Virus record (IMG/VR): IMGVR_UViG_3300045135_002361
Span: 1-30,195 of that record
Reading direction: 5' to 3' (one strand)
Source of the DNA: a virus
DNA: 30,195 nucleotides
How positions within the stretch are numbered: the first letter of the stretch is position 1; every line of letters starts with the position of its first letter. The notes under the pieces are model-generated. The model had not been told where the DNA came from. It did not search any database and worked only from the letters and a program-made list of their open reading frames with translations. Positions 479 to 30,195 of the stretch are shown one piece after another. Both the position numbers and the translations under genes were made by a program.

Positions 479-519
479 AGTAGTGTTAGTTGCTCAGGCT
501 AACACTACTAATTGCTTTT
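479..519 (+). terminator. Intrinsic terminator after ssb/lipoprotein genes
   Basis: A perfect 11-bp stem (AGTAGTGTTAG at 479-489 with CTAACACTACT at 499-509) has a 9-base loop and is followed by AATTGCTTTT. The T-rich tail contains the -35 box of the next promoter (512-517). Confidence 0.8.
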
Positions 520-541
520 AATACTTTATATATATTATAAT
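512..541 (+). promoter_or_regulatory. Promoter A of the hairpin array
   Basis: TTGCTT (512-517), an 18-base spacer and TATAAT (536-541) make a good sigma70-type promoter. The -35 box lies in the T-tail of the preceding terminator. The same TTGCTT-N18-TATAAT layout recurs at 668-697 and, on the other strand, at 27265-27294. Confidence 0.7.
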
Positions 542-547
542 AAGCAT

Positions 548-677
548 AGACTATATGATAGCTGTAAGCGTCCTACTTGAGAAACTACTCTTGCAGCTAT
601 CCCCCCATAAACTATATAATTTAAACTATTGGGCTATGTTTAGTGTCTGATTTCCATAGCCCTATAGTTGCTTTTTA
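548..677 (+). ncRNA. Putative small RNA A (about 125-130 nt)
   Basis: The predicted start is just after promoter A. The RNA has a 12-bp 5' hairpin (557-568 with 590-601, one G-U pair, 21-base loop), then six C's (601-606), an A/T-rich linker, and a 14-bp 3' hairpin with one mismatch (625-638 with 655-668) whose tail TTGCTTTTT serves as both terminator and next -35. No credible ORF lies within it. RNA B has the same plan, with the shared stem core GGGCTATG/CATAGCCC. The function is unknown; nearby genes suggest control of replication or of a host process. Confidence 0.5.
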
Positions 678-697
678 CCAATTAAATATTATATAAT
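668..697 (+). promoter_or_regulatory. Promoter B of the hairpin array
   Basis: TTGCTT (668-673), an 18-base spacer and TATAAT (692-697). The -35 box begins at the last base of the preceding terminator stem. Confidence 0.7.
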
Positions 698-703
698 ATT
701 ATT

Positions 704-803
704 AAGAGATCACAATATTGGGCTGTGCATTACCCCCTTTATGCACGGCATGAATGCTTAATTGGGCTATGTGACGCATTACATAGCCCATCATTTGATT
801 TTA
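704..803 (+). ncRNA. Putative small RNA B (about 95-100 nt)
   Basis: After promoter B comes a 9-bp 5' hairpin (722-730 with 741-749, one G-U pair) whose 10-base loop holds five C's. A perfect 10-bp 3' hairpin follows (763-772 with 781-790, loop GACGCATT) with the tail TCATTTGATTTT. The plan (5' hairpin, C-run, GGGCTATG terminator) parallels RNA A, which suggests paralogues by duplication. No supported protein is encoded. Confidence 0.5.
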
Positions 804-824
804 CCAATAAGAATAATGTATAAT
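795..824 (+). promoter_or_regulatory. Promoter C of the hairpin array
   Basis: TTGATT (795-800), an 18-base spacer and TATAAT (819-824); the -35 box lies in the tail of RNA B's terminator. Confidence 0.65.
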
Positions 825-830
825 TATATT

Positions 831-876
831 GAATTTGATTATAGGCTACATATATTTTTATGTGGCCTTTTTTTTT
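831..876 (+). ncRNA. Putative minimal transcript C with strong terminator
   Basis: Only about 12 bases separate the expected start from a 9-bp stem (844-852 with 859-867, one G-U pair) followed by nine T's (868-876). The product would be an RNA of about 45 nt that is almost all terminator. Unit D repeats the stem, T9 and the GTATAATTATATTGA segment about 83 bp downstream, so the unit was duplicated in tandem. Confidence 0.45.
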
Positions 877-877
877 G

Positions 878-907
878 TTGCGTTTATGTGCTTGTATTAG
901 GTATAAT
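878..907 (+). promoter_or_regulatory. Promoter D of the hairpin array
   Basis: TTGCGT (878-883), an 18-base spacer and TATAAT (902-907). It starts one base after terminator C's T9 run. The -35 is weaker than in A and B. Confidence 0.5.
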
Positions 908-913
908 TATATT

Positions 914-957
914 GATAGTTATACGGCTGCATAAACCTTTATGTGGCCTTTTTTTTT
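914..957 (+). ncRNA. Putative minimal transcript D with strong terminator
   Basis: A 10-bp stem with two G-U pairs (925-934 with 939-948) is followed by nine T's (949-957). It is a near copy of unit C: both end in TATGTGGCC, T9, GTTG. It gives a second complete stop to transcription just ahead of the initiator's own promoter. Confidence 0.45.
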
Positions 958-958
958 G

Positions 959-987
959 TTGATATGAGCAATAAAAAGATTTATAAT
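959..987 (+). promoter_or_regulatory. Promoter E, for the replication initiator operon
   Basis: TTGATA (959-964), a 17-base spacer and TATAAT (982-987). The leader to ATG 1041 is about 47 bases and holds a short inverted repeat CACTA/TAGTG just before the Shine-Dalgarno, a possible operator or translational control site. Confidence 0.65.
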
Positions 988-1040
988 ATACACATAACTA
1001 TCACTACCAAATAGTGAAATTCTTTAATAAAGGAGTTCGC

Positions 1041-1850
1041 ATGAACAAAATAAAACATAAGAACCCGTTTACTGCTGTACCTAATGCAGTGCTAAACGAT
1101 TCAAGATTAACATTTAAGGCTAAAGGCATATATAGCTATCTATTCAGTAAACCGGATGGGTGGGTGTTTTACAATCAAGCCATTTTAAATGAAACTGCTG
1201 AGGGCATAACAAGTTTTCAGTCGGGGATAAAAGAACTTGTTAAATATGGTTGGCTAAAAAAACAACAGCTAATTGCAAAAAATGGCCAGTTTGGTGGAAA
1301 TGAATACGAATTAATGACTGAACTACCAACACAAGAAAACATATCAACGGTTAAGCTCAAAAAGTCAAAAGCTCCTTTAGAAAAACCGGTCACGGAAAAC
1401 CCGGTATCGGATAATCCGGTTACGGAAAACATACTCACATATAAAGAAATAAATAATAAAGAAATAAATAAAAGAAAAAGTAATAGTATAAATACTATTA
1501 CCAAAAAGAAGTCAATGGACGACTATGAATTTATAAAGCTGTCATGGAATACGTTTGCTAATGAATTTGGGTTATCTGAAATAAGACAGTTAACAACCAA
1601 GCGCATTAATGGAATCAAGTCTCGTCAACGTGAAGATGGGTTTGATCTACAAGAGATATTTAATTGCATACAAGCTTCCCCATTCCTTTTAGGCGCTAAT
1701 GGCAATGACTGGAAGGCTGACTTCGACTGGGTGTTTTGTAGTCCGAACAACTGGCTAAAAATCGTGGAGGGTAAATACAAAGGCGAAAAAAAACAAGAAC
1801 CACAAGATAAGCTACAAAGCATTTTTGATGAATTAACTGGAGGTAAATAA
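1041..1850 (+). CDS. Replication initiator protein with N-terminal winged helix (lambda O-like role)
   Basis: ATG 1041 has a strong AAAGGAG 6 bases upstream; a GTG at 1014 lies before it and is disfavoured. The 269-residue protein starts with the phage/plasmid initiator winged-helix segment (about residues 8-95: NPFTAVPNAVLND, LTFKAKGIYSYL, KPDGWVF). A Pro/Val/Thr/Asn repeat (PVTEN, PVSDN, PVTEN) follows, then a charged A-rich linker, and a C-terminal domain with the FLLGANGNDWKADFDWVF ... NNWLKIVEGKY pattern typical of such initiators. It would bind the iterons inside its own gene and recruit the host helicase, helped by the possible loader at 2558. No polymerase is encoded, so host enzymes must elongate. 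Confidence 0.85.
   Translation: MNKIKHKNPFTAVPNAVLNDSRLTFKAKGIYSYLFSKPDGWVFYNQAILNETAEGITSFQSGIKELVKYGWLKKQQLIAKNGQFGGNEYELMTELPTQENISTVKLKKSKAPLEKPVTENPVSDNPVTENILTYKEINNKEINKRKSNSINTITKKKSMDDYEFIKLSWNTFANEFGLSEIRQLTTKRINGIKSRQREDGFDLQEIFNCIQASPFLLGANGNDWKADFDWVFCSPNNWLKIVEGKYKGEKKQEPQDKLQSIFDELTGGK
1386..1501 (+). other. Putative replication origin inside the initiator gene
   Basis: Three back-to-back 15-bp iterons lie at 1386-1400, 1401-1415 and 1416-1430 with consensus CCGGTNNCGGANAAN; they code for the PVTEN/PVSDN/PVTEN repeat. A very A-rich purine strand follows (1431-1479), then a perfect inverted repeat GTAATAGTA-TAAA-TACTATTAC (1480-1501). Lambda and relatives carry the same order (iterons in the O gene followed by an A/T-rich melting region). 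That the initiator binds here is inference. Confidence 0.7.
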
Positions 1851-19936: not shown

Positions 19937-20275
19937 GTGGATAAAGTAAATAATATAATTAAATATATAACTATCAAAAAAGTAGAAAAAAAAATAAGTG
20001 CATACAAACAAGATTACAGTACTCGAAATATTGATGCAGATAAAAAAATATTGCAATTAAAAACTGAGCTAGAACTAAAAAATTTAGGATATAGTTCTAA
20101 TGATTCACTAAATTTTAGAAAAAACCTAGAAAAAAATTACTTAAAAAAATATGAGGACATATTTCATTGTAGTAGTGAAATAAAAACAAAAATAAAAAGT
20201 GAATTACCTCAACTTTATCAACGAATTATGATTTCTCGTTACACAAGATTAAATGAACATTTAAAAAGTTTGTAG
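19937..20275 (+). CDS. Hypothetical basic protein (112 aa)
   Basis: GTG immediately follows the previous TAA, again in the same frame, and there is no Shine-Dalgarno. It could be made by reinitiation, or as a stop-readthrough extension of the 110-aa protein. It is rich in Lys, Tyr and Leu, mainly helical, and ends with QLYQRIMISRYTRLNEHL. No family recognised. Its stop codon overlaps the left arm of a hairpin. Confidence 0.5.
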   Translation: MDKVNNIIKYITIKKVEKKISAYKQDYSTRNIDADKKILQLKTELELKNLGYSSNDSLNFRKNLEKNYLKKYEDIFHCSSEIKTKIKSELPQLYQRIMISRYTRLNEHLKSL

Positions 20276-30028: not shown

Positions 30029-30195
30029 ATGCAAAACTTTACATTAATAGGAATAATTTCAAAAGATACAGAATATCGAATGACCGAAAAAGGGGATGCA
30101 ATGGTTCGTATATCTGTTCGAGTCTCAAGTAATAGGAAAGACGATCAAGGGCGTAGAATTAGTGACTTTTTCTACATGACGGCATGGGGAAAGAC
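30029..30195 (+). CDS. ssb: Single-stranded DNA-binding protein, N-terminal part (continues at 1)
   Basis: AAGGAG lies 6 bases before ATG. It opens MQNFTLIGIISKDTEYRMTE, a normal SSB start, then ISVRVSSNRKDDQGR and RISDFFYMTAWGK. The gene runs off the window and resumes at position 1 (see 1-206). The right-end copy has Tyr where the left has Asp. Confidence 0.9.
   Translation, partial: MQNFTLIGIISKDTEYRMTEKGDAMVRISVRVSSNRKDDQGRRISDFFYMTAWGK
30153..30195. repeat. Right copy of 43-bp terminal direct repeat
   Basis: Same as bases 1-43 except at 30173 (T against G at 21). Supports circular closure; the unique length would be 30,152 bp. Confidence 0.9.

Follow-up and report, generated by a model that had tools for sequence, protein, structure and literature searches.

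Ahead of the replication initiator gene in the uncultivated-phage record IMGVR_UViG_3300045135_002361 of the IMG/VR database lies a chain of short promoter/terminator units, here called A to D, and we consider it likely that the last of them, unit D, encodes a very small antisense RNA which controls the initiator from the same DNA strand. The window analysed is the whole record of 30,195 bases, with a G+C content of 34%. The initiator gene itself (1041..1850, + strand) is predicted to code for a replication initiator or helicase loader of an O-like, DnaD-like kind (PHROG 345, E 5.5e-23; PHROG 10469, E 6.2e-19). If true, this reading describes a very small antisense system governing phage DNA replication, with a tail-to-leader code that can be read from the sequence.

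The predicted RNA of unit D is about 44 nt long and is composed of a 5' tail of 10-12 nt and a terminator hairpin. Promoter D (TTGCGT-N18-TATAAT, 878..907, + strand, located by a pattern scan) leads into this predicted cognate small RNA (sRNA) at 913..957 (+), which contains the tail TGATAGTTATA (913-923), the terminator (925-948) and a T-tract. The predicted RNA, and with it the tail, starts 7 nt past TATAAT. As a reverse complement, the tail exactly matches the 10 nt with which the predicted initiator mRNA opens, ATAACTATCA (994..1003, +). This target sits at the predicted start of the message made from the initiator promoter (TTGATA-N17-TATAAT, 959..987, +), whose position is conserved in the relatives. 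Both arms are thus on the + strand, 71 bp apart in the window and 67-75 bp apart across the related loci. The complementarity was missed in the original prediction, an earlier reading of the same letters which had proposed either a cluster of small RNAs or a set of RNA polymerase traps.

Covariation of tail and leader

The upstream regions of the initiator were compared in nine distinct related loci, which represent six tail/leader types. In every one of the nine, the initiator-adjacent unit follows the same plan: TTGNNT-N18-TATAAT, the tail, a GC-rich terminator hairpin, a run of T8-9, and then GTTGA, which holds the -35 box of the initiator promoter. The tails have the format (U)GA-N-UUAUA, with UUUA in one type. 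The initiator mRNA has a plan of its own, starting with AUAA-N-UCA and running through a hairpin (UCACUACC..UAGUGA), AAUUCU and AGGAG to AUG; the hairpin is conserved, and its position is slightly shifted in L009. In each locus, the tail is reverse-complementary to the 10-13 nt at the beginning of this mRNA.

Counted from the UGA/UCA anchor, tail and leader form 10 consecutive Watson-Crick pairs in type T1 (TGATAGTTAT; the window and L002), 12 in T2 (TGATTAGTTATA; L004), 11 in T3 (TGATAAGTTAT; L007), 14 in T4 (TGAATTTGATTATA; L008), 12 in T5 (TGAATATGTTAT; L009 and L051) and 12 in T6 (TGAATTTGTTTA; the L011 group and L016). When each tail is set against each leader in a 6 x 6 matrix, the cognate combinations give 10-14 consecutive pairs and the non-cognate ones 3-8, with duplex energies of -10.6 to -13.3 and -0.7 to -8.6 kcal/mol, respectively. 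All of the tail positions from 4 to 10 vary, and they vary together with matching changes in the leader, leaving zero mismatches and zero G-U pairs; differences in tail length are mirrored by differences in leader length. A single one of the 720 possible assignments of tails to leaders attains the observed pairing sum, and it is the true assignment.

The C-terminal domain of the initiator is conserved, with 70-87% identity between the window and L007, L008, L011 and L016. Its N-terminal part is swapped for unrelated domains in relatives, sometimes with an additional open reading frame (ORF) in front. Judging from these comparisons, the initiator gene has undergone domain swapping behind the same leader.

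Wider scans returned little beyond this family. On both strands of all the loci examined (4.8 Mb, 535 terminator-like sites), a tail followed by a terminator and, a short way on, by the tail's complement was found in this family and in one chance case, and in the whole records of the relatives the strict unit (TTGNNT-N18-TATAAT, GC-rich terminator, T-run) occurs upstream of the initiator only. Scans with the leader pattern and with the sRNA-start pattern gave the known family plus chance matches, as judged by reading their contexts, and the terminator/-35 junction pattern gave no further case with tail complementarity among the matches listed. The literature on phage sRNAs that was covered, which takes in few of the subscription papers, does not describe this arrangement. 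In the window itself, a 12-nt complement of the D tail (TATAACTATCAA) lies at 19966-19977 (+), about 30 nt into the ORF at 19937-20275; it is probably a chance occurrence in AT-rich DNA, and possibly a second target.

Predicted leader switch and tails matching other phages

Folding of the initiator leader predicts two structures on the + strand: hairpin 1 (TCACTA-CCAAA-TAGTGA, 1001..1017), and an alternative helix (1014..1042) in which GTGAA(A)TTCTTT pairs with AAGGAGTTCGC and covers the leader from the Shine-Dalgarno sequence to the start codon. In the co-folds of 9/9 loci, tail and mRNA 5' end form a duplex. Hairpin 1 is opened in nearly all of them, and GUGAAAUUCU, the arm set free, pairs with AGGAGUU and the following bases as far as the start codon; in the L011 co-fold, a shortened hairpin 1 persists alongside the covered site. 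Once the tail site is blocked, opening the region from the Shine-Dalgarno sequence to AUG costs +2.2-4.4 kcal/mol more in 9/9 leaders. In shuffles of the intervening region, this cost has a mean of about 0 and the observed value is reached in no more than 2%.

From these predictions we infer that the sRNA acts as an OFF switch on initiator translation. Unit D would be transcribed into a minimal sRNA, in which a single-stranded 5' tail of 10-12 nt is directly followed by the sRNA's own terminator hairpin. Acting in trans, the tail would bind the opening 10 nt of the initiator mRNA and open hairpin 1 of the leader; the Shine-Dalgarno sequence and the stretch from there to the start codon would then be paired to the freed arm, leaving the initiator untranslated. 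If the sRNA is made constitutively, two further consequences would follow. Its dose would grow with the number of genome copies, so that phage replication would be held back by its own product, and a genome arriving in a cell that already houses one of the same type would be silenced by it. Tail and leader would co-evolve into separate specificity types.

The array also contains units with tails that match the leaders of other phages. Unit C, with promoter C (TTGATT-N18-TATAAT, 795..824, +, from the pattern scan) and a predicted sRNA at 830..876 (+) made up of the tail TGAATTTGATTATA (830-843), a terminator (844-867) and a T-tract, is a complete unit. Its tail does not match the leader of its own genome (-1.7 kcal/mol), and the search for other targets of unit C in that genome gave nothing convincing; against the leader of L008, it forms a 14-nt perfect match of -13.3 kcal/mol. 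An extra unit in L002 likewise has a tail with a 12-nt match to the leaders of L011 and L016. A third extra tail, TGATCGAATCAGATTATA, occurs in L002, L004 and L016 and has a format like that of the other tails. It is worth adding that L009 and L017, which are of two different types, come from one and the same metagenome according to their record names, and the tail/leader types therefore probably coexist.

Extra units such as C, through tails matching the leaders of other types, may extend the block to rival phages, although we put this step at somewhat under an even chance. How related phages tell self from rival inside one cell is a long-standing question. The six types together with the cross-type units make such recognition, among phages with no recognisable protein repressor, testable by reporters, and nature also offers here, in the tails and leaders, a ready-made collection of RNA switches that differ in specificity.

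Alternative readings and known RNA systems

Several observations weigh against reading unit D and its sister units as specific antisense RNAs. T2 and T3, as well as T4 and T6, are each one compensatory pair apart within the helix; for this reason the tail/leader specificity, as it appears from the sequences, is graded, and cross-type duplexes of -6.8 to -8.6 kcal/mol do occur. With longer downstream sequence, the leader switch amounts to only 0.3-4.1 kcal/mol, its sign being kept in 9/9, and the nine leaders are related, so that they do not make nine independent folding tests. The search for targets of units A and B in this phage and its relatives gave nothing convincing, and the leader predicted for the TGATCGAATCAGATTATA tail is absent from the viral contigs searched.

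The two arms could instead be a pair of DNA operators, that is, an inverted repeat with one arm at the start of promoter D and the other at that of the initiator promoter, to which a repressor or the initiator binds, perhaps with looping and with no RNA pairing. Transcription starts, where both arms lie, are a usual place for an operator, and a protein site could likewise change in step at two places. The arms, however, are not palindromic, they differ among the types in length as well as in sequence, and the gap between them is not fixed but ranges over 67-75 bp. Loci which share an initiator N-terminal domain have different arms (L007 and L009; the window and L004), unit C is without a partner arm in its own genome, and the leader switch would be left unexplained. 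RNA pairing is favoured over a protein site because of the matched length changes and the swapped N-terminal domains, and we regard the operator pair as improbable. Very unlikely too, and slightly less probable in our judgement, is that the arms act in cis alone, pairing inside read-through transcripts from the upstream promoters and keeping these silent, with no trans-acting sRNA. A read-through RNA of 913-1060 does fold in just this way, the ribosome-binding site being covered (z -5.3), but the arms are separated by a strong terminator (8-9 T) and by the initiator's own promoter, and the tails of the extra units match the leaders of other phages rather than their own. As for the RNA polymerase traps of the original prediction, which would merely limit, insulate or tune transcription into the initiator gene, head-to-tail promoter/terminator units directly upstream of the initiator are what such a chain would look like. 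It predicts neither the base-by-base covariation of tail and leader across six types nor the leader switch; because the covariation is not predicted by it, the trap was rejected as the main explanation and is left with hardly any probability.

If the antisense sRNA reading of unit D is accepted, there is still the question of what the extra units are for. They may be mere remains of module swaps at the terminator/-35 junction, for which we see close to an even chance. The units are near copies joined at TTTTTTTTGTTG, and L004 resembles a fusion of C and D, with the promoter from one unit and the tail and hairpin from the other. Against this, promoter and terminator are both complete in the extra units, whose tails match a present-day leader of another type perfectly over 12-14 nt, although T4 and T6 are so close that the perfect-match argument is suggestive only. 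Alternatively, the array, modular and built of minimal sRNAs of one tail plus one terminator, may be an RNA immunity library between competing phages, in which the initiator-adjacent unit is "self", the upstream units silence the replication of other types on co-infection through tails that match their initiator leaders, and units are exchanged at the terminator/-35 junction. We offer this library tentatively, with the balance of probability tipping against it; its exclusion model predicts a leader TAATCTGATTCGATCACTACC ahead of an initiator.

Some of these features are familiar from other RNA systems. The c4 RNA of phages P1 and P7 is encoded upstream of its target on the same strand, carries short complementary stretches, and is cut from a longer transcript. 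This phage antisense RNA of about 77 nt pairs around the ribosome-binding site and blocks translation, and it underlies heteroimmunity between related phages (PMC12197685). Unit D, by its sequence, also lies upstream of its target on the same strand, and the type-specific matching of RNA and target that heteroimmunity calls for is seen in its cognate (10-14) and non-cognate (3-8) pair counts. Unlike c4, which pairs through loops with the message of the antirepressor (ant), it would pair through a linear 5' tail with the message of an initiator or helicase loader; it has a predicted promoter and terminator of its own, and the locus has no Rfam match. An Rfam scan of the locus gave no family at gathering score, and its weak matches did not include any c4-like family.

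RNAII of plasmid pMV158, at 48 nt, has a 5' single-stranded tail, one terminator hairpin and a U-rich end; the tail drives binding, translation of the rep gene is inhibited, and the RNA causes incompatibility (PMC4485353). Unit D has the same body plan of a 5' tail and one hairpin, and its predicted target, judged by sequence, is an initiator leader. RNAII, however, comes from the strand opposite its target, to which its full length is complementary, whereas unit D shares a strand with its target without overlapping it, and matches it over the 10-14 nt of the tail only. It thus differs from the countertranscripts (pMV158 RNAII, CopA, RNAI), which come from the opposite strand and overlap their targets. 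The CI RNA of satellite phage P4 is another small same-strand RNA: it confers immunity by pairing with a leader that precedes replication genes. It is processed out of the leader transcript and brings about premature termination, while unit D has a separate promoter and is predicted to act by covering the ribosome-binding site. In pT181, the antisense RNA is a countertranscript, and its binding switches the rep leader between two mutually exclusive folds, the switched fold being a terminator. A switch of the leader fold on antisense binding is also predicted for the phage initiator, with neither a countertranscript nor a terminator fold. Antisense attenuators of the pT181 type have been discussed elsewhere (PMC3753616, PMC4878617). 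By analogy, then, the unit D system is closest to c4 in its proposed working and to pMV158 RNAII in its body plan. It is a member of neither class, because c4 acts on an antirepressor message, RNAII is a countertranscript along its full length, and the locus fits no family in Rfam.

The promoter/terminator array and its genome

The anatomy of the array is largely as the original prediction had it. The four TTGNNT-N18-TATAAT promoters placed at 512, 668, 795 and 878 are exact in position and on the + strand, each is followed by a hairpin terminator, and the fifth promoter, assigned to the initiator with N17 at 959, is present. As proposed, the terminator tails provide the next -35 box or lie right beside it (TTTTTTTTTGTTGC.., TTTTTTTTTGTTGA..), units A and B do share a plan (5' hairpin, C-run, GGGCTATG terminator), and C and D are indeed near copies, with 89% identity over 37 nt. 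The array was said to hold no credible ORF, and this agrees with what was found: a frame of 66 amino acids from a TTG start (762-962) crosses both terminators, whose T-run lengths vary among the relatives. The TTGNNT-N18-TATAAT pattern has no other + strand site in the window and one on the opposite strand; 2,000 dinucleotide shuffles of 431-1041 averaged 0.02 sites and did not exceed 2. A general promoter scan is at chance level in this AT-rich DNA (17 found, 17.7 expected), whereas there are 8 terminator-like sites where 1.6 would be expected. The predicted RNAs A to D fold far better than their shuffles, with z of -4.7, -4.1, -4.9 and -3.9, respectively.

Promoter A (TTGCTT-N18-TATAAT, 512..541, +) has the spacing of all the relatives' sRNA promoters. 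The predicted RNA A (544..674, +) has a 5' hairpin (557-601), a C-run and a terminator hairpin at about 624-669; in the L011 group, the 5' half of unit A is kept and the terminator is not. A sixth promoter-like site (TTGCAG-N18-TATAAT, 591..620, +), also missed at first, has an equivalent ahead of unit B in the L011 group. Promoter B (TTGCTT-N18-TATAAT, 668..697, +, from the pattern scan) precedes the predicted RNA B (701..799, +), a hairpin followed by a terminator at 763-790. Units A and B (544-799) thus give well-folded predicted RNAs. The predicted sizes (A about 125 nt, B about 97 nt, C and D about 42-45 nt) fit the cluster of small RNAs of about 45-130 nt that had been proposed, a proposal partly upheld by the conservation of the last unit's promoter, spacer and terminator in 9/9 loci. 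Loss of spacers and stems in relatives was to have counted against it; the cognate unit stands this test, being kept in every relative. A and B are missing from some relatives, where other promoter/hairpin units take their place.

The two ends of the record (1-43 and 30153-30195) have about 43 bases in common, with one mismatch, which suggests that a complete genome of about 30.15 kb has probably been captured, one that maps as a circle; judged from its own sequence, an SSB gene probably spans the ends. The window also encodes a P22-like portal, a terminase, Rad52 and a Gp157/Gam-like protein. No integrase was found in nine records, some of which are fragments. A DNA similarity search of 1-1900 against known phages and plasmids gave no match, the portal protein has no close relative among known phages, and neither the portal nor the C-terminal domain of the initiator has a relative in the genome collection; IMG/VR holds about 20 relatives of this phage. 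In L002 (1-440), L004 and L016, a small ORF ahead of the array looks like the N-terminal winged helix of the initiator in the window (KAKGIYSYLFS against EAKGVYCYLYS), and is perhaps, from this likeness, a truncated relic of it. In the window, the same slot ahead of the array is taken by an unrelated, small lipoprotein-like ORF (193-432).
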